From assembly GCA_004762155.1 (NCBI GenBank), contig SIHP01000004.1:1-64000 (forward strand): a stretch of 64,000 nucleotides of DNA, in the 5' to 3' direction. Both the position numbers and the translations under genes were made by a program. Numbering within the stretch: the first letter of the stretch is position 1; each line of letters opens with the position of its first letter. Below are positions 11,419 to 30,891 of the stretch, piece by piece. This stretch comes from Flavobacteriaceae bacterium (GTDB lineage: Bacteria > Bacteroidota > Bacteroidia > Flavobacteriales > Flavobacteriaceae). A model generated the notes under the pieces. That model did no database searches and was not told where the DNA came from. It worked only from the letters and a program-made list of their open reading frames with translations.

Positions 11419-11748
11419 TATCCCTTCATTATTACTTTATAATTTTTAGCCTATAAATTATTACTTATAGCTATTTCTAATACTATTCATTAAAATATTA
11501 AAGGTGTTTTTAGTTTAATTGATTAATAGTGCGTGTTTTGTGTTTTTTGTTGTTTTAACTCGTTAAATGTGATTTAAATATTTTTTTTATTGTTTAATTG
11601 TGTATTATGATGTTGTTTAACAAAATAATATACATATTCTCTTAAACTATGTTAAAATATTTCTTATTTCCATATCTTTATCAGTGACATATCGCAATTA
11701 ATTGTGTCACAACTTAAAAATCAACTAAAATTAAAAGTCTCCCGAGTT
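11419..11748. other. AT-rich upstream region of the giant gene
   Basis: About 330 bases hold no recognisable gene. They are rich in TTGTTT, TTTTGTG and TGTTTAA words. A promoter for the giant adhesin gene must lie here, but I find no unambiguous TTTG-N19-22-TAnnTTTG pair. The long 5' region could carry regulation. Confidence 0.4.
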
Positions 11749-14700
11749 ATGAGTTTTAAGAGAAGAAGGAAGTATTTAACCAGGACAGTACTAAATATTT
11801 GTTTATGGTTGTTTTTTTTATTCGTATCAAATTTTAGCTATTCACAGCTAGATTATTTACATTATTTACCACCATTAAAACAAACTTCTGGTACTAATAA
11901 TAATGCTAATCATCAAAGTTCTGCAGCAATTCAGCAACAAGCTATTTATTTATCTACACCAGAAACTACAGCATTTTCAGTAGATGTATATAGAGGTAAT
12001 TCAGCAACTCCATGGTTAACTATTCCTAGTTTGGTTAATGGAACTCCATTTATTATTGATAATGTTGATGATTCTGCAGGAGCTTTTGTAGATGTTGTAT
12101 TAGCAAATAGTAATAATAATATTACACTAGTTACCAATGGAAATACGGGACAAATATTAGATACAGCAGGTTTACGTTTTGAATCTTCGGATCCTACAAA
12201 AAAATTCTATGTAAACTACCGAGGTAGATCTAGTGCTCAAGCAGGTTCTTTAACATGTAAAGGAACAAAAGCTTTAGGTAAAGAATTTAGATGGGGAGGA
12301 ATTCCTAATGAGCATAATAATGCCAATTCTAGTACTTCATTAGGAATGATGGCTACCGTTGACGGAACAATTATTACTATCTCTGGCTATGATGAGGATT
12401 GTGCTTTTAGAGATGGTACTGATCCAAACGGTATTACAGATAATGTTTTTACAAGAACTTTAAATTCTGGTCAAACTTTTGTTTTAGAAATGGTTAGGAA
12501 CCAAACTGGTATTACTACAGAAGAAAACGCAGCACATATAGATGGTTGGATAGGTGCTACTATTACTGCAACAGAACCGATAGCTATTGCAAATGGAGGT
12601 TTAAATACAGGTGTTAATTCTACTTCTCAAGGAAGAGATGTTGGTATTGATCAACCAGTACCAATTAATGTTTTAGGAAGAGAATATGTTTTTATTAGAG
12701 GAAATGGGGCAAATCAAACAGAATTTCCGATAATTGTGGCAACAAGTGATGATACAGAAGTATATGCAGGAACTACATTAATAGATACTATTGATGATGG
12801 AGAATATCTAGAAATACCAGGCTCTTATTATTCAGGTACATCTGCAGGAGCCAATATGTACGTTCGTACCACTAAAGAAGTATATGCCTACCAATGTTTG
12901 GGAGGGCAGGCTGCAATTCAAACAATTGGAATGAATTTTATAGCTCCAGTAAATTGTTTGTTACCAAGTACTTTGAATGAAATTCCACAAATACAAAGAA
13001 TAGCACTTACAGATTCCAACTCATCAGCACTTACTATTATAGCAGCTACATTAATTCCAGATGGAGATGTAGACATATATCAAGATGGAGTTCTAATTAC
13101 AACACCAGCTTCTAGTACGATTACAGGAACAACAGAATGGAAGACTTTTTTTGTGGATAATTTATCTGGGGAAATTTCGGTAGATACACCTGGCCCCATA
13201 GCCGTAGGTACTTTTATGTCTTTAGGTGCTAATGCTGGTTTAGCAGGTTATTTTTCTGGTTTTGATACAACACCTGTAGTTGAAATAGAACTTACAGGAG
13301 GTGGATGTCATCCAGGTTCTAATTTACAGGAAGTTACGGGTGGTTTCGCAAATTATGAATGGTATAAAGGATTTGATGAGATAAGTGGTACGTTATTGGC
13401 AAGTGGACCTACTTTACAAACATATGATCCAACATTGAATGGAATAGGAAACTATTTTGTTAGAGTAACAGATTTTGGAGGTTGCGAATACAATTCAGCT
13501 GTGGTCACTTTTTTTAGTTGTGATCCAGAATTACAAGTGATAAAAATAGATGATGCAGATCCAATAGATGCAGGTAGTAACGTTACTTTTACTATAACTG
13601 CTGAAAGTTTTTCTGTAGACCCAATAACAAATGTGACAATTGAAGATATATTTCCAGCCGAATTAGAATTTGTAAGTGCTAATCCAGAATCTGGAACTAC
13701 TTTTTCAACCACAGGGGCACCAACATGGAATATTGGAGGGATGAATCCAGGAGATAAGTTTGAATTAGAAATTGTAGCAAGAGCTCGTGACGATGCTTCT
13801 GGCACAGTAACTAATACGATTACTTATAATTATGATGAAATTGCTAGTGAAATAAATAGTTTAACAGATGATTTAGACGAGCCAGTAACCATTAACCCTT
13901 GTAATACTGCAACTGCTCCATCGAGTACACCAACTTTGTGTATGAATACTGGATTAATAGATATAACTCATACAACAACATTAGCAACAGGAATAGGAGT
14001 ACCAACAGGTTTACCTTCTGGTATTACCGCTAGTTGGGCATCAAATACAATAACAATAAGTGGAATACCAACAGTATCAGGAGTTTTTAATTATGATATT
14101 CCTCTAACGGGTGGATGTAATACGGTAAGTGCTACAGGAACAATTACAGTAAACGCTTTACCAATAGCATTGGATATAACTGGAGTAACTGAGGTTTGTG
14201 AAGCAAGTACCATAAATTTAACAGAAGGTACAAGTGGAACTATTGCTTGGACATCTTCAGATGTTTCAGTAGCAACAATTAATGCTAGTGGCGTTGTAAC
14301 TGGTGTTGATGCAGGAAGTACTAATATAACGTATACAGTTACAGATGCTAATGGATGTGTTTCTAATAGTTCATCTGCACATGTTGTTACCGTAAATCCA
14401 ATACCAGTTTTTAATTCATTAAACACTAATTCTCCAATTTGTGAAGGAGATGATGCAGAGTTTTATATCTCAGGTTCTTCTTCAGTAGTTTTAACATATA
14501 ATATTGATGGTAATATTAATCAGACCGTAACTTTAGACGGATCTGGTGATGCAACTATTACTAATTCTGGAGCAACTTCAAATACAACTATTAATTTAAT
14601 TTCATTAGAATATATAGCAACTGGTTGTTCAATAAGTTTAACGAATTCAGAAACGGTTACTGTAAATCCAAGTCCGACATTAACTACGGCAGTAGATATA

Positions 14701-17700
14701 ATAGAATGCATTGAAAGTCCAATCCAAACGTTAAATGCCAATGATGGAATTACTTTTGATGCCAATGTCTCAATAGAATGGTATGATGCTGCAACAGGAG
14801 GTAATGTTATTACAACACCTACACTTACATATTCAGATATCGCTTCTCATACAAACGATCCAGTATCCTATTTTGCTGAATTAACAAATACAACAACATC
14901 TTGTGTGAATCCAGTAAGAGTAGAAATTGTGTTACAAATTGTTTCTCCTCCATTTCCTAATTTCATGGAAGAAGTATGTTCAAACGAAGCATTAAATATC
15001 GCCGTAGGATCTTTTGCTACAACTTATACAGTGGTTTCTTCTGATGAAACAAATGTTCCAGCGGGTCCTGCACGAACATCAGCTTTAGCAGCAAATATTA
15101 CAGAAACGTATATAAATACAACAGGAACAGATGTTATAATTACTTACACAGTAACTGTTGACGATGGAAGTGCGTGTGATGGAGAAATATTTGATGTTGT
15201 TGTTACTGTAAATCCAGAACCTTTTAATGCTATACCACCAGCAGAGACTATTTGTTCAGGTGAACAATTAAATCATGATTTAACAAGTGATGTCAATGTT
15301 TCTGGTACTACTTTTAGCTGGACTGCTGCTAATAATACAAACATTACAGGGGAAACTATTTCTGGAGGAGTTACATCTAGTATAACCGATACATTAATCA
15401 ATACTAGTGTAACATCCCAAATAGTAGTTTATACAATAACTCCTACAAATCCAGATAGTTGTGAAGGGAGTCCATTCACATATACAGTTACAGTAAAACC
15501 AGAAATTTCATTTACTACGCAACCAATCATATCACAAACATTATGTATTGGAGCAATACTCACTGATTTATCGGTAACGCTAACGGGAGGAATTGATGGT
15601 TTAAGTTATCAATGGCAAAGGTCAAATACAAGCGGAAGTGGTTTTACAAATATTGCTTTAGCTACAAGTTTAACTTACACACCAGTGACGACTAGTTCAG
15701 TGACAACATATTATCGTGTTATAGTAAGTGATGATAGTGGAATTTGTGCTGATTTAATTTCGAAAGAATCAGAAGTAATTATTAATGCAGATCCGACAAT
15801 TACCAGTCAACCAACGACAACACAAACCTTATGTATTGGCGCAACACCAACAGATTTATCAGTTGTAGCCAATGGAGGCGTAAATGGATTAACATATCAA
15901 TGGGAATCCTCAGCTACAAGCGGATCAGGATTTACAGCAATTGGAGGTGCGATCAATGCAACATATACGCCACCAACGACAACCGTAGGAACTATTTATT
16001 ATCAAGTTGTCATAAGTGATACAGGAAGTGGATGTACAAGTGTAACCTCAACAGAATCGGAAGTAATCATCAATGCAGATCCAACAATCACCAGTCAACC
16101 AGAAACAACACAAACTTTATGTGAAGACGCAACACCAACAGACTTGGTAGTTGTAGTGAATGGAGGCGTTGATGGATTGACATATCAATGGGAAACCTCT
16201 GCTACAAGCGGATCAGGATTTACAGCAATTGGCGGAGCAACAAGTGCAACATATACACCACCAACGACAACCGTAGGAACTATTTATTATCAAGTTATCA
16301 TAAGTGATACAGGAAGTGGATGTACAAGTGTAACTTCAACAGAATCCGAAGTAATTATTAATGCAGATCCAACAATCACGAGTCAACCAACAGCTACTCA
16401 AACCTTATGTGAAGGTGCAACGCCAACAGATTTGGTAGTTTTAACGAATGGAGGCGTTGATGGATTAACATATCAATGGGAATCCTCAGCTACAAGCGGA
16501 TCAGGATTTACAGCAATATCAGGAGCCACCAATGCAACATATACGCCACCAACGACAACAGTAGGAACTATTTATTATCAAGCAGTGATTAGTGATACCG
16601 GAAGTGGATGTACGAGTGTAATCTCAACAGAATCTGAGGTAATTATCAATGCAGATCCAACAATCACGAGTCAACCAACGACAACACAAACTTTATGTGA
16701 AGGCGCAACACCAACAGATTTATCAGTTGTAGCCAATGGAGGCGTTGATGGATTAACATATCAATGGGAATCTTCTACTACAAGCGGATCAGGATTTACA
16801 GCAATTGGAGGAGCAACAAATTCAACATATACACCACCAACGACAACAGCAGGAACTATTTATTATCAAGTTGTCATAAGTGATACAGGAAGTGGATGTA
16901 CAAGTTTAATCTCAACAGAATCAGAAGTAATTATCAATGCAGATCCAACAATCACCAGTCAACCAACGACAACACAAACTTTATGTGAAGGCGCAACCCC
17001 AACAGATTTAGTAGTTGTAGCGAATGGCGGAGTAGATGGATTAACGTATCAATGGGAATCCTCTGCTACAAGCGGATCAGGATTTACAGCAATTTCAGGA
17101 GCAACCAATTCAACATATACGCCATTAACGACAACAGTAGGAACTATTTATTATGAAGTTGTCATTAGTGATACAGGAAGTGGATGTACAAGTATAACAT
17201 CTGCAGAGTCAGAAGTAATCATCAATGCAGATCCAACAATAACGAGTCAACCAACGACAACACAAACTTTATGTGAAGGCGCAACTCCAACAGATTTAGT
17301 AGTTATAGTAAATGGCGGAGTAGACGGATTAACATATCAATGGGAATCCTCAGCTACAAGCGGATCAGGATTTACAGCAATATCAGGAGCCACCAATGCA
17401 ACATATACGCCACCAACGACAGCAGTAGGAACTATTTATTATCAAGCAGTGATTAGTGATACCGGAAGTGGATGTACGAGTGTAATCTCAACAGAATCTG
17501 AAATAATCATAAATGCAGATCCAACAATTACGAGTCAACCAACGACAACACAAACCTTATGTGAAGGAGCTACACCAACAGATTTGGTAATTGTAGCGAA
17601 TGGAGGCGTTGATGGATTAACATATCAATGGGAATTCTCAGCTACAAGTGGCTCAGGATTTACAGTAATTGGTGGCGCAACCAATGCAACATATACACCA

Positions 17701-20700
17701 GTAACGACAACAGTAGGAACTATTTATTATCAAGTTGTCATTAGTGATACAGGAAGTGGATGTATGGGTGTAACCTCAACAGAATCAGAAGTAATTATAA
17801 ATGCAGATCCAACAATTACGAGTCAACCAACAACAACACAAACCTTATGTGAAGGTGCAACGCCAACAGATTTGGTAGTTGTAGCAAATGGCGGCGTTGA
17901 TGGATTGACATATCAGTGGGAATCCTCTGCTACAAGCGGATCAGGATTTACAGCAATTTCAGGAGCAACCAATGCAACATATACGCCACCAACGACAACC
18001 GTAGGAACTATTTATTATCAAGTAATTATAAGTGATACAGGAAGTGGATGTACAAGTGTAACCTCAACAGAATCGGAAGTAGTTATTAATCCTTTGCCAG
18101 TTTTTACATCTTTAACATCAAATACACCGATATGTGAAGGAGAAGATGCTCAGTTTTTCGTTGTGGGATCACCTTCAGCAGTATTAACTTATAATGTTGA
18201 TGGAAATGCAGATCAAACAATAACATTAAATGGTGCTGGAGAAGCAACAATTACAAATGCAGGATCAACATCTGATGTAACTATTAATTTAGTTTCGTTA
18301 GCATATACTGCAACCAGCTGTTCGATAGCACTTACAAATTCAACAATAGTAACCGTTAATTCTAATCCAGTTTTAACGACAGCTACTGATATTATTGAAT
18401 GTGTTGAATCTCCTGTACAAACCTTAGATGCAAATAACGGAATAACTTATGGAGCTAATGTATCGGTAGTTTGGTATGATGCTTTGACAGGCGGAAATAT
18501 TGTTATAAACCCTACATCGAATGCGGAAAATGCACCAATATCTTATTATGCAGAATTAACAGATACAACGAGTTCGTGCGTCAATCCTGTTAGAGAAGAG
18601 GTAGTTTTACATATTGTATCTCCACCATTTCCTAATTTTACGGAAGAAGTTTGTTCAAATGAAGCACTAAATATTGACATTGATTCATTTACAGCTACCT
18701 ATACTGTGGTTTCTTCAGATCCGACAAATGTGCCAGCGGCAGCAAATAGAACAACAGCAATAGCACAAAATATTACAGATACTTATGAGAACACATCTGG
18801 AGCTCCAGTTGTGGTAACATATACAGTAACAATAGATGATGGAACAGCTTGTGACGGAGAAACATTTGACGTAATTGTAACTGTAAATCCTCAACCAGAT
18901 AATGTTAGTCCTCCAGTTGAAACCATATGTAGTGGAGAAACTTTAGCTCACGATTTGATAACAGATGTAAATGTAGCAGGATCAACTTTTAATTGGGTAG
19001 CTATAGATAATACAAATGTAAGTGGAGAAACTATATCTGGAGGAATTACGGCTAGCATTTCAGATACATTGGTAAATACTAGTGGAAGTGTTCAAACGGT
19101 TGTATATCAAATTACACCAACAAGTTCAAATGGTTGTGATGGAGAAACGTATAATTATACTGTTACCGTTAAACCTGAAATTTCTTTTACAACACAACCA
19201 GAAGTTACACAAACATTATGTGTGGGCGCAACACCAACAGATTTAGAAGTTGTGGTTGCAGGAGCAGTTGACGGAGTGAGTTACCAATGGGAGTCTTCAA
19301 CAAGTAGTGGAGGTGGATTTACTGCTATTTCTGGTGAAAGGGCGATTAGTTTTACGCCGCCAACAACAACAGTAGGAACCATGTATTATCGCGTTGTAAT
19401 TAGTGATATAAGTGGAATTTGTTCTGATGTTATTTCAGAAGAAGCCATTGTTATTATCAATGCTGATCCAACGATAACAACACAGCCATTAACAACACAA
19501 ACAATTTGTGAAGGAGCAGCACCAACGGATTTAGAAGTAATTGCTAATGGAGGAGTAGACGGATTAATGTATCAATGGGAATCATCTGCTTCAAGTGGAA
19601 CAGGCTTTACAACAATTGCAGGAGCAACAAATGCAAACTATACGCCAATTACGACAGTAATAGGAACTACGTACTATAGAATTATAATAAGCGATGCAGG
19701 AAGTGGATGTACTTCAATAACATCAGATGAATCAGAAGTAATTATCAATGCAGATCCAGCTATTACGTCTCAACCATTAACAACACAAACGATTTGTGAA
19801 GGTGCAACACCGACAGATTTAGAAGTAATTGCAAATGGAGGAGTTGACGGATTGACCTATCAATGGGAATCATCAACAACTATTGGAACTGGTTTTATGA
19901 TAATTTCTGGCGCAATCAATGCCACATATACACCACAAACAACAACAGTAGGAACTACCTATTATAGAGTGGTAATTAATGATTCTGGAAGTGGATGTAA
20001 TTCAATAACATCAGATGAATCAGAAGTAATTATCAATGCAGATCCAGCAATTACAAGTCAACCAATTACAACACAAACAATTTGTGAAGGTGCAATACCA
20101 AACGATTTAGAAGTAATTGTAAATGGAGGAGTAGCAGGATTAACATATCAATGGGAATCTTCAATTACAAGTGGAACAGGATTTACAGTAATATCTGGAG
20201 CAACCAATGCAACGTATACGCCAATTACTGTTGCAACAGGAACTATTTATTATCGAGTAGTTATTAGTGATGCAGGAAGTGGATGTACTTCTGCAACATC
20301 TTTAGAATCAGAAGTAATAATTAATGCAGATCCAACGATTACAAGTCAACCAATAATTACGCAAACCATTTGTGAAGGTGCAACACCAACAGATTTAGAA
20401 GTAGTTGCAAATGGAGGAGTAGCTGGATTAACCTATCAATGGGAATCTTCGCCGACAAGTGGAACTGGTTTTACTCAAATATTAGGAGCAACGAATGCTA
20501 CTTATACGCCTTTAACTTCATCTGTAGGAACTATCTATTATAGAGTTGTAATTAATGATGCGGGAAGTGGCTGTACAACAGTAATTTCAGATGAATCAGA
20601 AGTAATTATTAATGCAGATCCTACCATAACAAGTCAACCAATTGTAACTCAAGAATTATGTGAAGGTGCAACACCAACAGATTTAGAAATAGTAGCGAAT

Positions 20701-23700
20701 GGAGGAGTATCAGGATTAACGTATCAATGGGAATCCTCATCAACAAGCGGAACAGGATTTACATCAATATCCGGAGCTACGAATGCAACCTATATCCCAA
20801 ATACTGTTGCAACAGGAACTATGTATTATCGAGTAGTTATTAATGATGCGGGAAGTGGATGTACAACAATAATTTCAGATGAATCGGAAGTAATTATTAA
20901 TGCAGATCCAACGATTACAAGTCAGCCAATAAGTACACAAACGTTGTGTGAGTTGGCTATTCCAACAAATTTAACAGTAATTGCCAATGGAGGCGTTGAC
21001 GGATTAACCTATCAATGGGAATCATCAACTACAAGTGGAATAGGATTTACTGCAATATCAGGAGCCACAAATGCAAGTTATACGCCACCAACTGCAACAG
21101 CAGGAACTACTTATTATAGAGTTGTCATTAGTGATTTAGGAAGTGGGTGTACATCGATAACTTCTGCGGAATCTGAATTAATTATAAATCCGTTACCAAT
21201 TTTTACTTCACTAACAACAAATACACCAATTTGTGAAGGAGAAGATGCTGAGTTTTATCTTTTAGGTTCACCATCAGCAATCATAACCTATAATATTGAT
21301 GGAAATGCAAATCAAACTGTAACCTTAGATGGTGCTGGAGAAGCAACTATTGTAAATACAGCTTCCACAGTTGATGTAACTATTAATTTAATATCGTTAG
21401 AATATAGTACTACAAATTGTATCATAAATCTTACAAATTCGGCAACAGTAATTGTAAACCCAAATCCATCCGCAACAACAGTTTCCGATATTAATCAATG
21501 TGTAGAAACACCAATTCAAACTTTAAATGCAAATGACGGAATTGTTTTAAGTACGAACGTAACTGTAGTTTGGTATGATGCCTTAGTAGGAGGAAATATA
21601 GTTGGTTCTCCAACCTTAAATACTGTAAATTCACCAATATCATATTATGCAGAACTAACGGATACGAATAGTTCATGTGTGAATCCAGTAAGAGAAGAAG
21701 TTAGCTTACATATTTTATCACCTCCATTTCCTAATTTTGTAGAAGAAGTTTGTTCAAATGAAGCTTTAAATGTTGCTATTAATTCTTTTACAGCTACATA
21801 TATGGTTATTTCTTCTGATCCAACTAATGTGCCAGCTGCTGCAAATAGAACAACAGCAATAGCGCAAAATATCACAGATTCTTATGAAAATACAACAGGC
21901 AACGATGTTACGATTACGTATACAGTAACCATTGATGATGGAACGGCTTGTGATGGAGAAACATTTGATGTTGTAGTAACTGTAAATCCACAACCGTTTA
22001 ATGCTTCAGTTCCAACAGATATTGTTTGTAGTGATGTTGCCTTGAACCACGATTTAAATACTGATGTTAATGTTACTGGTGGTACTTTTACTTGGGAAGC
22101 TGCAGATAACGTAAATGTAACAGGAGAAACAGTTTCAGGAGGAACTGCTTCAACAATAACTGATGTTTTAACAAATATTACAGGAAGCGTTCAAACCGTT
22201 ATATATACAGTTACCCCAACAAGTGCTAATGGATGTGAAGGTGATGCTTTTACGTATGAAGTTACTGTAAATCCAGAACCATTTAACACAACAGCACCAA
22301 CAGATATTGTTTGTAGTGATGTAGCCTTAAATCACGATTTAAATTTAGATGTAAATGTTGCAGGAGCTTCTTTTAGTTGGATAGCTACAGATAATGCAAA
22401 TGTTACAGGAGAAACATTAACTAGCAGTTCATCAACAAGTATTACAGATACACTAACAAATATAAGTGGAAGTGCACAAATAGTTGAATATACAATTATA
22501 GCAACAAGTTCAAACGGTTGTATTGGAGATGCTTTTACGTATGAAGTTACTGTAAATCCAGAACCTAATACTATAACAGAACCAACAGATATGATTTGTA
22601 GTGATGCAACTTTAAATCATGATTTGAATACTGATGTAAATATAGCTGGATCAACTTTTAGTTGGATTGCTACAGATAATACAAATGTAACAGGAGAAAC
22701 ATTAGCAACTAGTTCATCAACAAGTATTACAGACACATTAACAAATATAAGTGGAAGTGATCAAACAGTTGAATATACTATAACGGCAACGAGTCCGGAT
22801 GGATGTATTGGAGATTCATATACCTATGCGGTTACTGTAAACCCAGAACCATTTAATGTTACAGCACCTACAGAAGTTGTTTGTAGTGATATTGCACTGA
22901 ATCACGATTTAAATACCGATGTAAATGTAACAGGATCGACTTTTAGTTGGATTGCTACGGATAATGCAAATATTACCGGTGAAACACTAACGACTAATTC
23001 ATCAGCAATTATAACAGATACTTTAACAAACATAAGTGGAAGTGTTCAAAGAGTTGAATATACAATTACGGCAACAAGTCCTAATGGATGTATTGGAGAT
23101 TCATATACATATACTGTAACTGTAAATCCAGAACCAAATAACGCAATTGCTCCAACAGATATTGTTTGTAGTGATATTGCATTAAACCACGATTTAAATT
23201 CGAATGTAAATGTAACAGGATCAACTTTTAGTTGGATTGCTGCAGATAATACAAATATTACAGGCGAAACATTAACCACAAGTTCATCAACAAGTATTAC
23301 AGATACTTTAACGAATATAAGTGGAAGTGTTCAAACTGTTGTATACACAATTACGGCAACAAGCTCAGACGGATGTATTGGAGATCCTTACACATATACT
23401 GTAACGGTAAATCCAGAACCAAATAATGTTACAGCACCTACAGAAGTTGTTTGTAGTGATGTAGCCTTAAATCACAATTTATTAGTAGACGTTAATACAC
23501 CAAGTGGCGCAACTTTTAGCTGGATTGCTGCAGATAATACAAATATTACAGGCGAAACATTAACCACAAGTTCATCAACAAGTATTACAGATACGTTGAC
23601 GAATATTAGTGGAAGTGTTCAAACGGTTATATACACAATTATACCAACAAGTGTTGATGGATGTTTAGGAGATCCGTATACATACACTGTAACAGTAAAT

Positions 23701-26700
23701 CCAGAACCTAATACTATAATTGCACCAACAGATTTAGTTTGTAGCGATATTGCTTTAAATCACGACTTAAATACCGATGTAAATGTAACGGGAGCAACTT
23801 TTAATTGGTTTGCTGCTGATAATACAAATGTAAATGGTGAAACTACAATAACGAGTGCAACAACAAGCATTACAGATACACTAACAAATATAAGTGGAAG
23901 TGTTCAAACTGTTGAATATACAATTATACCAACAAGTTCAGATGGATGTATTGGCGATCCTTATATGTATACTGTAACGGTAAATCCAGAACCAAATAAT
24001 ATAACTGCACCAACCGATTTAGTATGTAGTGATGTAGTTTTAAATCATGATTTAAATACTGATGTAAATTTACCTGGCACTACTTTTAGTTGGTTAGCAA
24101 CAGATAATCCTGCTATTACAGGAGAAACAACTGTTGCAAATACATCAACAAGTATTACAGATACGTTAACGAATATAAGCGGAAGTGTTCAAACTATTGT
24201 ATACACAATTACACCTACAAGTTCGGATGGATGTATTGGAGATGCTTACACATATACAGTAACCGTAAATCCAGAACCATTTAATGTAACAGCACCAACA
24301 ACAGATGTAGTATGTAGTGATATTGCTTTAAATCACGATTTAACTTCCGATATTGATTTAGCAGGAACAACATTTACTTGGGTCGCAACATCAAATATTA
24401 ATGTTTCTGGGGAAACGCTTTCTACAAGTTCAGCAACAATTATAACCGATACATTAACGAATTTAAGCGGAAGCGTTCAAACTGTAGTATATACAATTAC
24501 ACCAACGAGTGCAGATGGATGTTTAGGTGATCCATTTGTATATACTGTAACCGTAAATCCAGAGCCTTATAATTCAGTAGCGCCAACAAATACAATATGT
24601 AGTGATATAGCCTTAAATCATGATTTAAATACCGATGTAAATGTAGCTGGATCAACTTTTAGTTGGATTGCTTTAGATAATCCTGCTATTACAGGAGAAA
24701 CGCTTTCCACAAGTTCAGCAACTAGTATTACCGATACATTAACAAATATTAGTGGAGTAGCACAAACTGTTGAATATATAATTACGGCAACAAGTCCAGA
24801 TGGATGTATTGGTGATCCGTATACTTATACTGTAATTGTAAATCCAGAGCCAAATATTATAACCGCGCCAACAGATACTACTTGTAGCAATGTTGCTATA
24901 AATCACGATTTAACTGCTGATGTAGATTTAACAGGAACAACATTCACTTGGGTTGCAACTGATAATACAAATGTAAGTGGAGAAACAACAACAGTATCAA
25001 CAAATACAAATATTACAGATACCTTAATAAATGTGTCAGGAGCAGTACAAATAGTAGTTTATACAATTACACCAAGTTCTGCAGATGGATGTGTGGGCGA
25101 TCCGTACACATATACGGTAACTGTAAGTCCAGCAGGAGCATTTGTAGTTGAAAAATCTTCATTACCAGCAGCAGACGGAAGTTATAATTCTGTAGGAGAA
25201 GTTATTCAATATGAAATAACTGTAGAAAATAGTAACGATGTTGAAATGACCAATGTGAGTATTACAGATATGAATGCAGATATTGGTAGTATTTCGCCAA
25301 CAAATGTAACTTCGATTCCTGCATTTGGTTCGGTAACATTTACTGCCGCTCATACGATTACTCAAAACGATTTAGATGCCGGCGAGGTAATTAATAGTGC
25401 TATGGCTTCAGGAACAGATCCTTGTGGAAATGTGGTTACAGCGACTTCAGATGATCCTGATACTACAGATCCTAATGATGATACGATTGTGAGTTTAGAA
25501 CAAACACCAGCAATTTCTTTATTAAAAACAGCAACCTTTAATGATGAGGATGGTGATGGATTTCCGCAAGAAGGAGAAACAATAACCTATAATTTCACTA
25601 TAGAAAATACAGGAAATACTACTATAACAGGCATTGAAGTAAGTGATCCATTAATTACAGTAAATGGAGGTCCAATAGATTTAGCGCCATCTAATACAGA
25701 TTCGACTACATTTTTTGGAACTTTTACTATTTCTCAAGCGAATATAGATGCTGGAAGTCTTACCAATTCTGCAACAGTTTCAGGAGATGATCCAAATGGA
25801 GATCCTGTAATTGATACTTCTGATGATCCAAATGATACAACAGATAATGATTCAAATGGAGATGGTGATCCAGATGATGTAACTCTATTTGAGTTTGACG
25901 AAGCGCCAGAATTAACAATTTTTAAAACAGGAGTTTTTATAGATGCGAATAACGACGGATTTGCTCAAGTAGGTGAAACGATTGCTTATACTTTTGATAT
26001 CACGAATACAGGAAATGTAACTATTTCTGGTATTACAATTTCAGATGCTTTAGTTTCAGTTTCAGGAAGTGCAATTACTTTAGCTCCAAATGAAACAGAT
26101 GCAACTACCTTTACAGCAACATATACATTAACACAAGATGACGTAGATGCAGGTAATGTCACGAACACAGCAACAGCTTCTGGAACCACACCAAGTGGAG
26201 CAACTGTAACTGATGATTCAGACGATCCAACGACTACAGATAATAATGATGCTACAGTAACTACATTGTCTCAAGATCCTCAGTTAACATTGTTAAAAAC
26301 ATCAGTATTTAATGATGAAGACGGAGATGGATTTCCGCAAGAAGGAGAAACAATCACCTATATTTTTGATGTAAGAAATACAGGAAATGTGGTAATTACA
26401 AATATTTCTATAACAGATGCTTTGGTAACTGTAAATGGTGGACCCATAGATTTAGTTCCAAATCAAACCGATGCAACTACATTTACAGCCACGTATGTAT
26501 TAACTCAAAATGATATAAATACAGGAAGTGTAACCAATACCGCAACAGTAACTGGAGAAGATCCAAATGGAGATCCTGTAACGGATATTTCAGATGATCC
26601 AACAAATTCGGATGATAATGATGCCAATGGAGATGGAAATCCAGATGACTCAACAGTTACAACTCTAGGAAGTAACCCACAAATGAGTGTTGAAAAAGTT

Positions 26701-29700
26701 GGTGTTTTTGCTGATGAAAATGGAGATGGAATAACACAAGTGGGCGAAACAATCAGTTATACTTTTAATGTAATAAATACAGGAAATGTTACGATTAGTA
26801 ATATTATAATTACAGATGCCTTAGTTACCGTTTCTGGAAGTGCAATTAGTTTAGACCCAACAGAAAATGATAATACAACTTTTACAGCAACGTATACGTT
26901 AACTCAAGATGATATAGACTCAGGAAGTATTACAAACACCGCGACTGTTAACGGTGAAGATCCTTCAGGAGATTCAGTAACCGATACTTCTGATGATCCA
27001 AATAATCCAGATGATAATGATCCAAATGGAGATGGAGAACCAGATGATAATACAATTACAGAATTTCCTCTTTTTGGAGAAATTAGTTTAACTAAAGCAA
27101 CGTTACCAGCATCAGATGGGAGTTACGATACTTTAGGTGAGCAAATTATGTATGAGTTAATCATAACAAATACTGGAAATGTAACGTTAACGGATGTTGA
27201 GGTTACAGATGCCAATGCAGATAGTGGAAGTATAACACCAGCAAGTATAGCTTCAATTTCGCCAGGCGTGAGTGTAACAGTAAATGCTACACATACGATT
27301 ACGCAAGATGATTTAAATGCAGGATTTGTAACCAATACAGCTTCTGTTGCAGGTGAAGACCCATTTGGAAACATGGTTACAGATGATTCTGATGATCCAA
27401 ATAATCCAGCAGATAATGATACGAATGGAGATGGAGATCCAGATGATATTACAAATACAACTATTGATCAAAAACCTTCAATGGAACTAGAAAAGGTTGC
27501 TGTGTTTAATGACGAAAATGGTGATGGAATTCCACAATTAGGGGAAACATTGACGTATAATTTCTCAGTAGAAAATACAGGAAATGTTACGTTAACTAAT
27601 ATCTCTATTACAGATCCTTTAGTAACTGTTAATGGCGGTCCTATAACTTTGGCTCCTACAGAAGTTAATAATTCAACATTTTATGCAGAGTATACAATAA
27701 CGCAATTAGATATTGATAACGGAAGTGTTACCAATTCAGCTTCAGTAAATGGAGAAGATCCAATAGGAGGAAACGTAACAGATACTTCAGATGACCCAAA
27801 TGATACCACCAATAATGATATAAATGGAGATGGAGATCCAGATGATAGTACAGTAACAACATTACCAAGTAATCCTGAATTAATACTTTCTAAAACAGGT
27901 ACGTTTATAGATGCAAATAATGACGGACTAGCACAAGCTGGAGAAACGATTCAATATGTTTTTGATATTTTTAACTCTGGAAATGTTACTATTTCAGGTA
28001 TTATAATTACTGATCCAATTGTAACCGTTTCAGGAAGTCCAATTACTTTAATTCCTGGTCAAAGAGATAGCAGTACTTTTACAGCAACTTATACATTAAC
28101 ACAAACGGATGTTGATAATGGAGTTGTTGAAAATACCGCCTCAGTTTCAGGAAACGATCCTTCTGGCAATACAATTACAGATGATTCTGATGATCCAACT
28201 ACGACAGCTGATAATGATGCTACAATTACAACTTTAGCAAGAGATCCACAATTATCATTATTTAAAATAGGAATCTTTAATGATGAAAATGGAGATGGAA
28301 TTCCACAAGAAGGAGAAACAATATCTTATGTTTTTGATGTAAGAAATACGGGTAATGTTACCATTTTTGATGTAATTATTACAGATCCAATTGTAACCGT
28401 AAGTGGAGCAGCAATAGACTTAATACCAGGTCAAATAGATAATACAACGTTTACAGCTGAATATACAATTCAGCAAACTGATATTGACGCAGGAAGTTTA
28501 TCTAATACAGCTTTAGCAGTTGGTGAAGACAATAATGGTGGAACGATTACAGATGTTAGTGATTATTCTGATGATCCTGATAATCCAATTAATGAGGATT
28601 TAGATGGAGATGGAGATCCAGATGATCCAACAGTGACGACGTTAACAGGAAATCCTGAATTGAATTTAGATAAAATAGGAACGTTTAATGATGAAGATGG
28701 AAATGGTGTTGCTAATGTAGGTGAAACAATTACTTATGTTTTTGAAGTTGAAAATATAGGTAACGTAACGATTACAAATATTACAGTCTCAGATCCTTTA
28801 GTAACTGTAAACGGTAGTTCAATTGATTTAATTCCAGGACAAATAGATACAACTACTTTTACAGCAACGCACACAATTACTCAGTTTGATATTGATGCAG
28901 GTGGAATAACGAATGCAGCTGTTGTTTCAGGTCAAGATCCTAATGGTGATGTAATAAGTGATAATTCAGATGATCCAAATAATGCATCAAATGTAGATGA
29001 TAATAATGATGGAAATCCTGATGATGATACGGTAACAACTATACCAGTGCAAGGAAGCATTAGTATTCTTAAAGAAGCAATAGTTGCAACTGATGGAAAT
29101 TACGATACTTTAGGTGAAGTGATTACGTATACAATTGTGGTTACGAATACTGGAAATATAACATTATCAAATATAGAGATAACAGATGCTAATGCAGATG
29201 TAGGTAGTATATCACCTTCAAATATCTTATTGTTAGCTCCAAATGAAAGCATTACAGTTGTGGCACAGCACACAATAACGCAAGCTGATTTAGACGCGGG
29301 AGAAGTAAATAACACAGCTAATGTAACAGCAGAAGATCCATTTGGAAATACTGTAACAGATGATTCTGATGATCCAAATAATACAACTGATAATGATACG
29401 AATGGAGATGGAGATCCAGATGATGTTACCAATACTTTAATAGATCAAAATCCTTCGTTATCATTACTAAAAACTTCAGATATTGCTCCAGATGGGTTAT
29501 GGGATACTGTTGGTGAAGTAATCACCTATAGTTTAACAGTTACAAATACAGGAAATGTAACGATAACAAATCTTGTAATAACAGATGCAAATGCAGATGT
29601 TGGAAGTATATCACCAGCAAATATTGCTTCATTAGCACCAGGAGAAACTGTAAATATTGTAGCAAGTCATACAATTACTCAAAATGATTTAGATACAGGT

Positions 29701-30891
29701 TCAGTAAGTAATACAGCAACAGTAACAGGTGAAGATCCAAATGGAGGAATAGTTATAGATGATTCTGATGATCCAAATAATACAACTGATAATGATACGA
29801 ATGGAGATGGAGATCCAGATGATATCACAATAACAACAACTCCACAAACTGGAATTCTAGACATTGTTAAAGAGGTAGATGTTTTAACATATGAAAATAT
29901 TGGAGATCTATTAACGTACACAATTACTATAACTAATACAGGTAATGTAACTTTGTTAAATATAATAGTAACTGATCCAAATGCAACACTTACAGGGGTT
30001 ACAACAGTTGCATCTTTAGCACCTAATGAATCATTTGTTACAACAGCAGAACATGTTGTTACAGCAGAAGATATAGATACAGGTTTTGTAGAAAACACAG
30101 CCTTTGCAGCAGCTACAATAATTAATTCAACAACATCTATTATAGAAGATTCAGACGATCCAACAATTGATACTAATATTGATATTGATAATGATGGAGA
30201 TTTTGAAGATCCAACAGTGAGTATTTTTGATGGAATATCAGACATTAGTATAACCAAAGAAGTAAGTAATTTAAACCCAGTAGTTGGTGATGAAATTACA
30301 TTTACAATTACGGTAACCAATGAAGGTTCAGTATCAACATCTAATATTAGTGTAGAAGAACTTTTACCAAGTGGATATGAATTTATTTCATATGTTACTA
30401 CAGTTGGTGATTATTCTAATACCACAGGATTATGGGTTATTGACACATTAGAAGCAAATGATATTGAAACATTAGAAGTTACTGTTAGGGTTATAGGTTT
30501 TGGAGATTATTTAAATACAGCTAGTATTACAAGTATAGAAGGAGCCACTGATATGAATACATCTAATGACATAGATACAGCAACAATAACCCCAGAATGT
30601 TTGGGTGTTTACAATGAATTTAGTCCAAATGGAGATGGTATAAATGAATACCTTCATATTAATTGTATTGAAAACTATACAGAAAATGTGTTAGAAATTT
30701 TCAATAGATGGGGTAATACAGTCTATAAAGTTGAAGGTTATAATAACGGAACAAAAAGTTTTGTTGGAGAATCTAATGGTAGAGCAACAATAACAACTTC
30801 AAAACAATTACCAGTAGGAACCTATTTTTATGTTTTAGATTTAGGTGATGGAAGTGATGTAATTAAAGGTTGGATATATATAAATAGATAA
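11749..30891 (+). CDS. Giant modular T9SS-secreted adhesin, about 6,380 residues
   Basis: I choose the ATG at 11749 over a GTG at 11704 because it gives a normal signal peptide: MSFKRRRKYL, a hydrophobic core, then YSQ. Domains in order are: an IgGFc-binding-protein-like N-terminal region (about residues 40-500), a DUF11-type domain (about 590-715), Ig/Big_2-like domains to 883, nine 96-aa Ig-like units (1251-2114), seven more (2476-3147), eleven 95-aa PKD-like units (3414-4460), thirteen acidic ~131-aa DUF11/DUF7507-like units (4461-6162), a last DUF11 domain, and a CHU_C gliding-motility-type T9SS domain (about 6284-6380, with NEFSPNGDGINE). Size and layout resemble surface adhesins such as SprB, but orthology is not claimed. 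It should be exported by Sec then T9SS and displayed on the cell surface. It is flanked by unrelated genes, so it appears to be a single-gene unit. Confidence 0.9.
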   Translation: MSFKRRRKYLTRTVLNICLWLFFLFVSNFSYSQLDYLHYLPPLKQTSGTNNNANHQSSAAIQQQAIYLSTPETTAFSVDVYRGNSATPWLTIPSLVNGTPFIIDNVDDSAGAFVDVVLANSNNNITLVTNGNTGQILDTAGLRFESSDPTKKFYVNYRGRSSAQAGSLTCKGTKALGKEFRWGGIPNEHNNANSSTSLGMMATVDGTIITISGYDEDCAFRDGTDPNGITDNVFTRTLNSGQTFVLEMVRNQTGITTEENAAHIDGWIGATITATEPIAIANGGLNTGVNSTSQGRDVGIDQPVPINVLGREYVFIRGNGANQTEFPIIVATSDDTEVYAGTTLIDTIDDGEYLEIPGSYYSGTSAGANMYVRTTKEVYAYQCLGGQAAIQTIGMNFIAPVNCLLPSTLNEIPQIQRIALTDSNSSALTIIAATLIPDGDVDIYQDGVLITTPASSTITGTTEWKTFFVDNLSGEISVDTPGPIAVGTFMSLGANAGLAGYFSGFDTTPVVEIELTGGGCHPGSNLQEVTGGFANYEWYKGFDEISGTLLASGPTLQTYDPTLNGIGNYFVRVTDFGGCEYNSAVVTFFSCDPELQVIKIDDADPIDAGSNVTFTITAESFSVDPITNVTIEDIFPAELEFVSANPESGTTFSTTGAPTWNIGGMNPGDKFELEIVARARDDASGTVTNTITYNYDEIASEINSLTDDLDEPVTINPCNTATAPSSTPTLCMNTGLIDITHTTTLATGIGVPTGLPSGITASWASNTITISGIPTVSGVFNYDIPLTGGCNTVSATGTITVNALPIALDITGVTEVCEASTINLTEGTSGTIAWTSSDVSVATINASGVVTGVDAGSTNITYTVTDANGCVSNSSSAHVVTVNPIPVFNSLNTNSPICEGDDAEFYISGSSSVVLTYNIDGNINQTVTLDGSGDATITNSGATSNTTINLISLEYIATGCSISLTNSETVTVNPSPTLTTAVDIIECIESPIQTLNANDGITFDANVSIEWYDAATGGNVITTPTLTYSDIASHTNDPVSYFAELTNTTTSCVNPVRVEIVLQIVSPPFPNFMEEVCSNEALNIAVGSFATTYTVVSSDETNVPAGPARTSALAANITETYINTTGTDVIITYTVTVDDGSACDGEIFDVVVTVNPEPFNAIPPAETICSGEQLNHDLTSDVNVSGTTFSWTAANNTNITGETISGGVTSSITDTLINTSVTSQIVVYTITPTNPDSCEGSPFTYTVTVKPEISFTTQPIISQTLCIGAILTDLSVTLTGGIDGLSYQWQRSNTSGSGFTNIALATSLTYTPVTTSSVTTYYRVIVSDDSGICADLISKESEVIINADPTITSQPTTTQTLCIGATPTDLSVVANGGVNGLTYQWESSATSGSGFTAIGGAINATYTPPTTTVGTIYYQVVISDTGSGCTSVTSTESEVIINADPTITSQPETTQTLCEDATPTDLVVVVNGGVDGLTYQWETSATSGSGFTAIGGATSATYTPPTTTVGTIYYQVIISDTGSGCTSVTSTESEVIINADPTITSQPTATQTLCEGATPTDLVVLTNGGVDGLTYQWESSATSGSGFTAISGATNATYTPPTTTVGTIYYQAVISDTGSGCTSVISTESEVIINADPTITSQPTTTQTLCEGATPTDLSVVANGGVDGLTYQWESSTTSGSGFTAIGGATNSTYTPPTTTAGTIYYQVVISDTGSGCTSLISTESEVIINADPTITSQPTTTQTLCEGATPTDLVVVANGGVDGLTYQWESSATSGSGFTAISGATNSTYTPLTTTVGTIYYEVVISDTGSGCTSITSAESEVIINADPTITSQPTTTQTLCEGATPTDLVVIVNGGVDGLTYQWESSATSGSGFTAISGATNATYTPPTTAVGTIYYQAVISDTGSGCTSVISTESEIIINADPTITSQPTTTQTLCEGATPTDLVIVANGGVDGLTYQWEFSATSGSGFTVIGGATNATYTPVTTTVGTIYYQVVISDTGSGCMGVTSTESEVIINADPTITSQPTTTQTLCEGATPTDLVVVANGGVDGLTYQWESSATSGSGFTAISGATNATYTPPTTTVGTIYYQVIISDTGSGCTSVTSTESEVVINPLPVFTSLTSNTPICEGEDAQFFVVGSPSAVLTYNVDGNADQTITLNGAGEATITNAGSTSDVTINLVSLAYTATSCSIALTNSTIVTVNSNPVLTTATDIIECVESPVQTLDANNGITYGANVSVVWYDALTGGNIVINPTSNAENAPISYYAELTDTTSSCVNPVREEVVLHIVSPPFPNFTEEVCSNEALNIDIDSFTATYTVVSSDPTNVPAAANRTTAIAQNITDTYENTSGAPVVVTYTVTIDDGTACDGETFDVIVTVNPQPDNVSPPVETICSGETLAHDLITDVNVAGSTFNWVAIDNTNVSGETISGGITASISDTLVNTSGSVQTVVYQITPTSSNGCDGETYNYTVTVKPEISFTTQPEVTQTLCVGATPTDLEVVVAGAVDGVSYQWESSTSSGGGFTAISGERAISFTPPTTTVGTMYYRVVISDISGICSDVISEEAIVIINADPTITTQPLTTQTICEGAAPTDLEVIANGGVDGLMYQWESSASSGTGFTTIAGATNANYTPITTVIGTTYYRIIISDAGSGCTSITSDESEVIINADPAITSQPLTTQTICEGATPTDLEVIANGGVDGLTYQWESSTTIGTGFMIISGAINATYTPQTTTVGTTYYRVVINDSGSGCNSITSDESEVIINADPAITSQPITTQTICEGAIPNDLEVIVNGGVAGLTYQWESSITSGTGFTVISGATNATYTPITVATGTIYYRVVISDAGSGCTSATSLESEVIINADPTITSQPIITQTICEGATPTDLEVVANGGVAGLTYQWESSPTSGTGFTQILGATNATYTPLTSSVGTIYYRVVINDAGSGCTTVISDESEVIINADPTITSQPIVTQELCEGATPTDLEIVANGGVSGLTYQWESSSTSGTGFTSISGATNATYIPNTVATGTMYYRVVINDAGSGCTTIISDESEVIINADPTITSQPISTQTLCELAIPTNLTVIANGGVDGLTYQWESSTTSGIGFTAISGATNASYTPPTATAGTTYYRVVISDLGSGCTSITSAESELIINPLPIFTSLTTNTPICEGEDAEFYLLGSPSAIITYNIDGNANQTVTLDGAGEATIVNTASTVDVTINLISLEYSTTNCIINLTNSATVIVNPNPSATTVSDINQCVETPIQTLNANDGIVLSTNVTVVWYDALVGGNIVGSPTLNTVNSPISYYAELTDTNSSCVNPVREEVSLHILSPPFPNFVEEVCSNEALNVAINSFTATYMVISSDPTNVPAAANRTTAIAQNITDSYENTTGNDVTITYTVTIDDGTACDGETFDVVVTVNPQPFNASVPTDIVCSDVALNHDLNTDVNVTGGTFTWEAADNVNVTGETVSGGTASTITDVLTNITGSVQTVIYTVTPTSANGCEGDAFTYEVTVNPEPFNTTAPTDIVCSDVALNHDLNLDVNVAGASFSWIATDNANVTGETLTSSSSTSITDTLTNISGSAQIVEYTIIATSSNGCIGDAFTYEVTVNPEPNTITEPTDMICSDATLNHDLNTDVNIAGSTFSWIATDNTNVTGETLATSSSTSITDTLTNISGSDQTVEYTITATSPDGCIGDSYTYAVTVNPEPFNVTAPTEVVCSDIALNHDLNTDVNVTGSTFSWIATDNANITGETLTTNSSAIITDTLTNISGSVQRVEYTITATSPNGCIGDSYTYTVTVNPEPNNAIAPTDIVCSDIALNHDLNSNVNVTGSTFSWIAADNTNITGETLTTSSSTSITDTLTNISGSVQTVVYTITATSSDGCIGDPYTYTVTVNPEPNNVTAPTEVVCSDVALNHNLLVDVNTPSGATFSWIAADNTNITGETLTTSSSTSITDTLTNISGSVQTVIYTIIPTSVDGCLGDPYTYTVTVNPEPNTIIAPTDLVCSDIALNHDLNTDVNVTGATFNWFAADNTNVNGETTITSATTSITDTLTNISGSVQTVEYTIIPTSSDGCIGDPYMYTVTVNPEPNNITAPTDLVCSDVVLNHDLNTDVNLPGTTFSWLATDNPAITGETTVANTSTSITDTLTNISGSVQTIVYTITPTSSDGCIGDAYTYTVTVNPEPFNVTAPTTDVVCSDIALNHDLTSDIDLAGTTFTWVATSNINVSGETLSTSSATIITDTLTNLSGSVQTVVYTITPTSADGCLGDPFVYTVTVNPEPYNSVAPTNTICSDIALNHDLNTDVNVAGSTFSWIALDNPAITGETLSTSSATSITDTLTNISGVAQTVEYIITATSPDGCIGDPYTYTVIVNPEPNIITAPTDTTCSNVAINHDLTADVDLTGTTFTWVATDNTNVSGETTTVSTNTNITDTLINVSGAVQIVVYTITPSSADGCVGDPYTYTVTVSPAGAFVVEKSSLPAADGSYNSVGEVIQYEITVENSNDVEMTNVSITDMNADIGSISPTNVTSIPAFGSVTFTAAHTITQNDLDAGEVINSAMASGTDPCGNVVTATSDDPDTTDPNDDTIVSLEQTPAISLLKTATFNDEDGDGFPQEGETITYNFTIENTGNTTITGIEVSDPLITVNGGPIDLAPSNTDSTTFFGTFTISQANIDAGSLTNSATVSGDDPNGDPVIDTSDDPNDTTDNDSNGDGDPDDVTLFEFDEAPELTIFKTGVFIDANNDGFAQVGETIAYTFDITNTGNVTISGITISDALVSVSGSAITLAPNETDATTFTATYTLTQDDVDAGNVTNTATASGTTPSGATVTDDSDDPTTTDNNDATVTTLSQDPQLTLLKTSVFNDEDGDGFPQEGETITYIFDVRNTGNVVITNISITDALVTVNGGPIDLVPNQTDATTFTATYVLTQNDINTGSVTNTATVTGEDPNGDPVTDISDDPTNSDDNDANGDGNPDDSTVTTLGSNPQMSVEKVGVFADENGDGITQVGETISYTFNVINTGNVTISNIIITDALVTVSGSAISLDPTENDNTTFTATYTLTQDDIDSGSITNTATVNGEDPSGDSVTDTSDDPNNPDDNDPNGDGEPDDNTITEFPLFGEISLTKATLPASDGSYDTLGEQIMYELIITNTGNVTLTDVEVTDANADSGSITPASIASISPGVSVTVNATHTITQDDLNAGFVTNTASVAGEDPFGNMVTDDSDDPNNPADNDTNGDGDPDDITNTTIDQKPSMELEKVAVFNDENGDGIPQLGETLTYNFSVENTGNVTLTNISITDPLVTVNGGPITLAPTEVNNSTFYAEYTITQLDIDNGSVTNSASVNGEDPIGGNVTDTSDDPNDTTNNDINGDGDPDDSTVTTLPSNPELILSKTGTFIDANNDGLAQAGETIQYVFDIFNSGNVTISGIIITDPIVTVSGSPITLIPGQRDSSTFTATYTLTQTDVDNGVVENTASVSGNDPSGNTITDDSDDPTTTADNDATITTLARDPQLSLFKIGIFNDENGDGIPQEGETISYVFDVRNTGNVTIFDVIITDPIVTVSGAAIDLIPGQIDNTTFTAEYTIQQTDIDAGSLSNTALAVGEDNNGGTITDVSDYSDDPDNPINEDLDGDGDPDDPTVTTLTGNPELNLDKIGTFNDEDGNGVANVGETITYVFEVENIGNVTITNITVSDPLVTVNGSSIDLIPGQIDTTTFTATHTITQFDIDAGGITNAAVVSGQDPNGDVISDNSDDPNNASNVDDNNDGNPDDDTVTTIPVQGSISILKEAIVATDGNYDTLGEVITYTIVVTNTGNITLSNIEITDANADVGSISPSNILLLAPNESITVVAQHTITQADLDAGEVNNTANVTAEDPFGNTVTDDSDDPNNTTDNDTNGDGDPDDVTNTLIDQNPSLSLLKTSDIAPDGLWDTVGEVITYSLTVTNTGNVTITNLVITDANADVGSISPANIASLAPGETVNIVASHTITQNDLDTGSVSNTATVTGEDPNGGIVIDDSDDPNNTTDNDTNGDGDPDDITITTTPQTGILDIVKEVDVLTYENIGDLLTYTITITNTGNVTLLNIIVTDPNATLTGVTTVASLAPNESFVTTAEHVVTAEDIDTGFVENTAFAAATIINSTTSIIEDSDDPTIDTNIDIDNDGDFEDPTVSIFDGISDISITKEVSNLNPVVGDEITFTITVTNEGSVSTSNISVEELLPSGYEFISYVTTVGDYSNTTGLWVIDTLEANDIETLEVTVRVIGFGDYLNTASITSIEGATDMNTSNDIDTATITPECLGVYNEFSPNGDGINEYLHINCIENYTENVLEIFNRWGNTVYKVEGYNNGTKSFVGESNGRATITTSKQLPVGTYFYVLDLGDGSDVIKGWIYINR
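13522..13896 (+). repeat. Isolated DUF11-type domain near the N-terminus of the adhesin
   Basis: The coding segment starting DPELQVIKIDDADPIDAGSN and continuing through VTIEDIFPAELEFVSA has the DUF11 pattern also found in the long 3' array. It marks the switch from the IgGFc-binding-like head to the Ig/PKD stalk. Confidence 0.6.
15499..18090 (+). repeat. Ig-like array 1: nine in-frame units of exactly 288 bp
   Basis: Boundaries fall at 15499, 15787, 16075, 16363, 16651, 16939, 17227, 17515 and 17803, all 288 bp (96 codons) apart. The first unit (KPEISFTTQP) is diverged; the next eight are nearly identical in protein (ADPTITSQP ... TLCEGATPTDL ... GLTYQWES ... YYQ ... SGCTS). Each has two conserved Cys that probably form a disulfide. 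Units are also very similar at DNA level, which suggests gene conversion or recent duplication. Confidence 0.95.
19174..21189 (+). repeat. Ig-like array 2: seven in-frame units of exactly 288 bp
   Basis: Units start at 19174, 19462, 19750, 20038, 20326, 20614 and 20902. They share the consensus of array 1, but typically have TICEGATPTDLEV and YYRVV, so they contain Arg and are more diverged at DNA level. The first unit again begins KPEISFTTQP, as in array 1, so the two arrays arose by duplication of a larger block. Confidence 0.95.
21988..25128 (+). repeat. PKD-like array: eleven units of 285 bp (two of 288)
   Basis: Starts are 21988, 22273, 22558, 22843, 23128, 23413, 23701, 23986, 24271, 24559 and 24844. 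The consensus is NPEPxN ... APTDIVCSD-ALNHDLNTDVNV ... TFSWIA-DN-N-TGET ... SITDTLTNISGSVQTV-YTI ... DGCIGD. Two units (23413 and 24271) have one extra codon. Single copies of the same domain precede each Ig array, at 15214-15498 and 18889-19173. Confidence 0.92.
25129..30234 (+). repeat. Array of thirteen acidic DUF11/DUF7507-like units (~131 residues)
   Basis: Each unit opens with a lysine-bearing strand (for example ISLLKTATF), then often an acidic DEDGDG or DENGDG loop, ITYxFxVxNTGNVTIxNIxITD, and ends in a second acidic loop (DDPN ... NGDGDPDD). The loops look like calcium-binding DxDxDG sites. Units 1, 6, 11 and 12 use a shorter ADGSYDTLGE-type opening without the first acidic loop, which makes a patterned higher-order series. 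Confidence 0.85.
30598..30888 (+). other. CHU_C / gliding-motility-associated T9SS C-terminal domain
   Basis: The last 97 residues contain the family marks EFSPNGDGINEYLHI, VLEIFNRWGNTVYK, LPVGTYFYVLDLGDG and a KGWIYINR end. This is the type B T9SS sorting domain. Confidence 0.9.

Follow-up and report, generated by a model that had tools for sequence, protein, structure and literature searches.

The stalks of the Periscope class consist of repeats with high mutual identity and variable number, according to excerpts of PMC8201768 and PMC9704523. The domain families DUF11 and DUF7507 have been renamed CLIPPER and CLIPPER_2 (PMC12617251, in excerpt). That source shows an isopeptide bond in the CLIPPER crystal 9IFR, predicts one for the DUF7507 reference triad Lys72/Asp112/Asn152, and gives disulfides in 34.9% of CLIPPER_2 domains. 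For type B T9SS tails of Flavobacterium johnsoniae, the excerpts of PMC12618676 report that the shuttle of a 68%-identical tail secreted a non-cognate tail, whereas those of tails 43% or 26% identical did not, and that a single shuttle serves three orphan type B tails in trans. The giant protein described here has points in common with all of these systems. We read it as a periscope-like, T9SS-exported surface adhesin in which a variable arm would stand on a base of fixed length, and give this reading a probability of about 0.6.

Gene and domain layout

The window, meaning the whole stretch of DNA that was analysed, comprises 64 kb (positions 1-64000 of contig C42) of a draft genome of 47 contigs. 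An uninterrupted frame extends from 11704 to 30891 on the + strand, and its ATG at 11749 yields 6,380 residues that are identical to database record P0002, which bears out the single 19-kb gene of the preliminary description. Collapsed assembly is not expected in this gene, because its longest exact repeat has 96 bases and no 100-mer is present twice. At least four other adhesin-like frames of the genome run off contig ends (the starts of C46, C47 and C21 and the end of C5); the draft therefore understates the number of its giant adhesins and leaves these frames incomplete. Upstream of the gene lie a DnaB helicase and a protein of 419 residues with no Pfam match. The gene downstream encodes a FabG-like reductase and adjoins that of an ankyrin-repeat protein of 429 residues (31844-33133, - strand).

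A Pfam search, which the preliminary description had recommended, was run on the protein in four pieces and matched all of IgGFc_binding (117.9 bits, cut-off 25.6), Ig_7 (205 bits), PKD_5 (250.8 and 1251.4 bits in two pieces), DUF7507 (917.6 bits), DUF11 (63.8 and 166.5 bits) and CHU_C (88.0 bits, cut-off 27); the NCBIfam type B T9SS sorting domain TIGR04131 scored 41.7 bits (cut-off 35). Both the IgGFc-binding-like head and the CHU_C T9SS tail had thus been named correctly. IgGFc_binding is absent from the precomputed Pfam list of P0002, yet direct scans match it (117.9 and 121.6 bits). The name (PF17517) serves here as a Pfam family label only and not as evidence of IgG Fc binding. Unit order was parsed with profiles made from the protein's own units, and gave the following features.

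11749..11847, +, signal peptide region, residues 1-33: charged start, then a hydrophobic stretch (read from the translation)
11839..13341, +, head, residues 31-531, IgGFc_binding family, five cysteines (Pfam, profile parse, AF2)
13522..13893, +, first DUF11 domain, residues 592-715 (Pfam, profile parse)
13894..14403, +, Ig-like stretch, residues 716-885: Big_2 and a weak He_PIG match (domain scan)
14404..15492, +, node 1, IgA-IgB-PKDc-PKD5, residues 886-1248 (profile parse)
15505..18084, +, array 1, nine Ig_7 units, residues 1253-2112, 288-bp period (repeats, profile parse)
18097..19167, +, node 2, IgA-IgB-PKDc-PKD5, residues 2117-2473 (profile parse)
19180..21183, +, array 2, seven Ig_7 units, residues 2478-3145 (repeats, profile parse)
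21196..22266, +, node 3, IgA-IgB-PKDc-PKD5, residues 3150-3506 (profile parse)
22267..25122, +, array 3, ten further PKD_5 units, residues 3507-4458 (repeats, profile parse)
25168..30183, +, base, 13 DUF7507 units, profile residues 4474-6145, with the first triad Lys at 4469 (Pfam, profile parse, triads)
30241..30588, +, last DUF11 domain (111.2 bits)
30607..30891, +, CHU_C / type B T9SS C-terminal domain, residues 6287-6380, and stop (Pfam, NCBIfam, parse)

The arm totals 38 units, namely the three nodes with 9 Ig_7, 7 Ig_7 and 10 PKD_5 units. The five-zone layout proposed earlier is confirmed by Pfam as regards its domains, but not as regards the division between head and base: the two Ig arrays and the PKD array exist, but belong to three node-plus-array blocks that share one four-domain node. 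The acidic DUF11/DUF7507 array was also recognised rightly; its DUF7507 part comprises 13 units, with 17.5% Asp+Glu against 10.1% in the arm. With its head far out, a long stalk of repeats and a tail for surface anchoring, the protein probably follows the plan of a fibrillar adhesin, as judged from the domains. The description of a giant type B T9SS substrate of SprB-like size, with an N-terminal, far head and repeats as its stalk, is thereby supported.

Arm and base among relatives

Repeats of the arm differ in how alike they are. DNA identity averages 89% in Ig_7 array 1 (eight full-length units) and is 79% in array 2 (six units), 77% between the two arrays, 78% among PKD_5 units (seven of equal length) and 71-76% between nodes, while main-type base units average 0.669 (seven units). 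Array 1, being the most alike at the DNA level, therefore bears the marks of the most recent tandem growth, and the base bears none. Its mean protein identity of 0.898 (eight 96-residue units) lies above the Periscope criterion of at least 80% identity in repeats over 50 residues; array 2, at 0.775 and less uniform, falls below it. Between species, the Ig_7 number changes from 9+7 in the window protein to 13 and 25 in P0003 and P0004 of Tenacibaculum, which have the same node plan and a head 73% identical, but no DUF7507 base.

Relatives were collected by a head search (883 candidates scored, 207 matches, 120 listed) and a base search (898 scored, 582 matches, 120 listed), with candidates eligible in both if they had 0.55 to 1.75 times the length. 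Base units were defined as DUF7507 units of the C-terminal array, starting beyond 45% of the chain. According to the precomputed lists, PKD_5 and DUF7507 occur together in 17 proteins among the listed matches, the window protein included, and 16 of these have exactly 13 base units; P0017 has 3. In 11 of the 16, three or four extra DUF7507 matches directly follow the head; these lie apart from the base and were not counted with it. The common number is in part shared descent, because the 17 proteins had been selected for their similarity to the window head or base. Named genera among the 16 are Neotamlana, Postechiella, Flavobacterium, Tenacibaculum and Aquimarina, and the 13-unit length is thus kept in at least five named genera besides that of the window.

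The length of the base is almost constant, and that of the arm is not. The head was found by its own profile in 14 of the 16 proteins (not in P0133 and P0140), where it lies 1,234 to 3,942 residues from the base. The base itself spans 1,667-1,676 residues in 15 of the 16 and 1,634 in P0133. All 12 unit-to-unit distances are identical in 12 proteins; P0005 and P0006 deviate at one distance, P0155 at three (by one or two residues) and P0133 at five. Units of the window base match best the same-numbered unit of a relative in 153 of 195 comparisons. Across the 91 pairs of 14 proteins, which are not independent because they share one tree, the head has 4.24 indel events per 100 substitutions and the base 0.12. 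Mean difference is similar in the two (0.350 and 0.359), and 630 events fall in the head against 63 in the base, although the base is 3.4 times longer.

Outside this group other numbers are found. The longest DUF7507 run in the other proteins listed in the base search has 11 to 66 units, with none in P0199. P0029, which appears in both listings, has a head of the window's family and 45 DUF7507 units but no PKD_5. The 12 actinobacterial-type proteins looked at have 47 or 48 units, and their unit spacings are nearly constant too. As a separate observation, base units five apart are more alike (mean 0.579) than those at other distances (0.44-0.55), likewise in four relatives tested, which suggests a likely old duplication of a five-unit block within the base (residues 4474-6145).

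The preliminary description had not recognised the domain order from described adhesins. Database relatives speak against an unknown order: a 13-unit base recurs in 15 other proteins, in 13 of which the profile also finds a head of this family, and P0155 comes close to the whole order, though its arm is shorter. A description of such a protein was not found in the literature, searched by topic words rather than protein names. Recent joining of head and base in the window gene was rejected, as the head tree and the base tree of 14 proteins both group the window protein with P0005 and P0006 (support 100/99 in each), which have other arm domains. P0131 and P0132 are placed differently in the two trees, their place in the base tree being weakly supported.

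Head, predicted locks and export

The AF2 model of the head consists mostly of strands (mean pLDDT 83.9, pTM 0.86). It gave no convincing match to solved structures, a sequence search for a solved relative found none up to E 1, and no enzyme family in Pfam or NCBIfam matched the head piece. With identities going down to about 30%, heads of this family occur in 76 of 298 sampled genomes of Flavobacteriaceae. In Maribacter, Zobellia and Cellulophaga, heads about 50% identical are paired with SprB repeats in the precomputed Pfam lists.

Other arrangements of the head were also encountered. Proteins of about 800 residues with head and DUF11, but without T9SS tail, are encoded in the same-genus genomes G013, G043, G021, G001, G053, G078 and G026 (L027-L032, L034). 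The eight ends examined share one closing motif inside a DUF11-like domain. A programmed frameshift at this common end was rejected, because no other frame continues the domain at nine ends (eight of head proteins and one of a neighbouring gene). A tenth end is that of the repeat-rich giant L026, in which the frame is broken. Fourteen genomes (G104, G253, G319, G273, G363, G359, G265, G260, G385, G223, G242, G097, G244 and G366) contain a further head frame, 685 to 1,044 residues long, on the same strand and 12.4-12.9 kb from the head of a giant of 4.1-4.3 thousand residues. This places it directly behind the giant gene, a frequent position of shuttle genes; four junctions of this kind, L062-L065 (including G232), were read.

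Arm and base differ in the residues that may lock their domains. Two cysteines at near-constant positions are present in all 38 arm units, and one cysteine in the 1,672 residues of the base. The same division holds in the 14 head-bearing proteins, the window protein included, with 1.64-3.7 cysteines per 100 residues between head and base and one in each base. Given the disulfides of CLIPPER_2 domains cited above, the near-lack of cysteine in the window base is no family rule. A Lys-Asp-Asn triad is found in all 13 base units of the window protein and in 208 of 208 base units from 16 proteins, in an alignment with 8 of 132 columns fully invariant. Its spacing is 40/40 in eight window units, equal to that of the published DUF7507 reference triad (PMC12617251, in excerpt), 38/42 in four and 35/40 in the last. 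The triad is a trait of the DUF7507 family, present in 2,019 of 2,127 control units from other proteins listed in the base search, and therefore does not single out the window base.

The base is best read, on these residues, as predicted to be isopeptide-locked. Calcium may act as well: of the DxDxDG-like motifs of the protein, 17 fall within the base and 1 outside it. Of the earlier idea of calcium-stiffened units near the cell-side end, a contribution of calcium thus stands as a possibility, but the isopeptide lock is preferred. The AF2 model of a DUF7507 pair was unreliable (mean pLDDT 51.8).

Concerning export, a PorP_SprF match lies close 3' of 8 of the 16 CHU_C places in the genome; there is none on C42, and hence none adjacent to the adhesin gene. 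The window tail was compared by local alignment with those of 11 of the 15 other CHU_C places (the C5 tail was left out). It is 77% identical to the tail on C46 and 72% to that on C47, both with PorP genes. Identities elsewhere are 50% and 43% (C8 and C21, no PorP), 40-42% (five tails with PorP) and 33% and 32% (C11). Together with the outcome in F. johnsoniae at 68% and 43% identity, these values make the C46 and C47 PorPs the predicted shuttles. The two PorP genes (G000:C47:902-1843 and G000:C46:3601-4551) are 93% identical to each other, and the tails of the cut-off adhesin genes adjoining them 74%; the two loci are likely a duplicated substrate-shuttle pair, to judge by these identities.

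Related loci vary in this respect. The head giant of same-genus genome G081 is directly followed by a PorP that is 62% identical over its full length to the C46 PorP, and a PorP match stands directly 3' of the type B tail in L024 and L066. Searched with one query at E 1e-6, the 3.2, 2.8 and 4.3 kb 3' of the tail in L060, L061 and L067 gave no PorP match; the frame of L061 and L067 is perhaps not whole from head to tail. In the same-genus genomes G035 and G002, the PorPs that best match that of C46 reach 77% and 72% identity.

Proposed reading and comparison with known systems

In the periscope-like reading, the chain would leave by Sec export and then through the T9SS, its type B tail being picked up in trans by a PorP/SprF-like shuttle from the PorP genes of C46 and C47. 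The base, being C-terminal, would lie closest to the cell, with the head at the outer end. The reach of the arm would change as near-identical units are gained or lost by recombination, each arm domain being stapled by one disulfide, and the base would stay as a fixed spacer with one isopeptide bond per domain. We infer adhesion, the bonds, a rod shape, the use of a shuttle and selection on base length from these features taken together. A more specific proposal, which we offer tentatively, is a segmented periscope: the base might act as a 13-domain isopeptide-locked ruler that clears a fixed distance from the surface, while the disulfide-stapled arm, at liberty to vary in length and domain type, tunes the reach of a conserved head. 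The lock chemistry would then be split by segment, isopeptide where length is fixed and disulfide where it is variable. Our caution about the ruler has two reasons: the base units could have become fixed in number through divergence, with no selection involved, and P0017 and P0029 show that other numbers exist.

Such freezing is itself an explanation to be weighed: the base may be constant merely because its units differ too much in DNA (identity 0.669, against 0.89 in array 1) to recombine, its length being without function. Other DUF7507 arrays also hold their number within groups, as the 47 or 48 units of the 12 actinobacterial-type proteins illustrate. Missing recombination does not explain, however, why small indels are rare within base units and linkers, when the head has 35 times more per substitution. 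Compact repeat domains may admittedly tolerate indels less than a head does, and we regard a functionless length as less likely than not. That calcium, and not isopeptide bonds, is the main lock of a stiffened rod appears unlikely. The acidic composition of the base and its 17 motifs speak for it, but motif counts vary from 11 to 18 among the bases of 14 proteins, with 6 to 9 outside the base in nine of these and one in the other five; the triad, unlike the motifs, is complete in all 208 units, and calcium and bonds may act together.

Two further alternatives concern the function of the whole protein. The head could be an enzyme or a receptor that the stalk merely places, and it has neither a known binding partner nor a solved relative in the sequence search up to E 1; we consider this improbable in view of the missing enzyme family match and the occurrence of the same head family on different long stalks, as is seen with adhesive domains. 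Still less probable is a role in gliding like that of SprB, in which the protein would be carried along a helical track and pull the cell. The protein approaches SprB in size (6,497 residues; PMC9870892, in excerpt) and has a type B tail, GldJ is encoded in the genome and scores above its cut-off, and some type B tails go to the gliding machinery, though the same source states that not every such tail goes to the track (PMC12618676, in excerpt). The Pfam scan found no SprB repeats (PF13573) in the protein, and none of the 83 listed genome matches to them lies on C42 (150 of 169 candidates scored); other long frames of the genome do contain them. As C42 has no PorP/SprF gene either, the gene downstream being FabG-like, identity with SprB was rejected.

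Adhesins of variable length are known; new would be a single chain in which variable and almost indel-free stalk segments have different predicted covalent locks. This raises the question of why a bacterium fixes the length of one part of a fibre and not of another, and with heads in 76 of the 298 sampled family genomes, an answer would reach beyond the window genome. The analysis also yields a sequence-based shuttle prediction for an orphan type B T9SS substrate.

Among known systems, the Periscope Proteins SasG, Rib, Sgo_0707 and CdrA resemble the window protein in being single chains with an N-terminal functional domain, arrays of near-identical folded domains of variable number, and C-terminal anchoring (PMC8201768 and PMC9704523, in excerpt). 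It differs from what those excerpts describe in that only the arm varies and a second stalk segment is fixed nearly to the residue, in ending in a T9SS type B tail where those proteins have sortase or autotransporter anchoring, and in that the variation was here seen between species only. The base corresponds to CLIPPER_2 in its DUF7507 stalk units with a Lys-Asp-Asn triad at published spacing; a fixed 13-unit base below a variable two-cysteine arm is not described in the excerpts of PMC12617251, and its single cysteine contrasts with the disulfide frequency given there. Size, a type B T9SS tail and a predicted surface fibre are shared with SprB of F. johnsoniae, whereas SprB repeats and an adjacent SprF are not. 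The F. johnsoniae orphans Fjoh_1123, Fjoh_1720 and Fjoh_4934 likewise have a type B tail without neighbouring shuttle gene, but there one orphan shuttle serves all three (PMC12618676, in excerpt), while the shuttles predicted here are PorPs tied to other substrates. Also close are the giants with a head of the same family in Tenacibaculum, Neotamlana, Postechiella, Flavobacterium and Aquimarina (P0003-P0006, P0009-P0011, P0013, P0015, P0131, P0132, P0135 and P0139). Their arm domains and lengths differ from those of the window protein, and all share its 13-unit base except P0003 and P0004, which share instead its plan of nodes and Ig_7 units.
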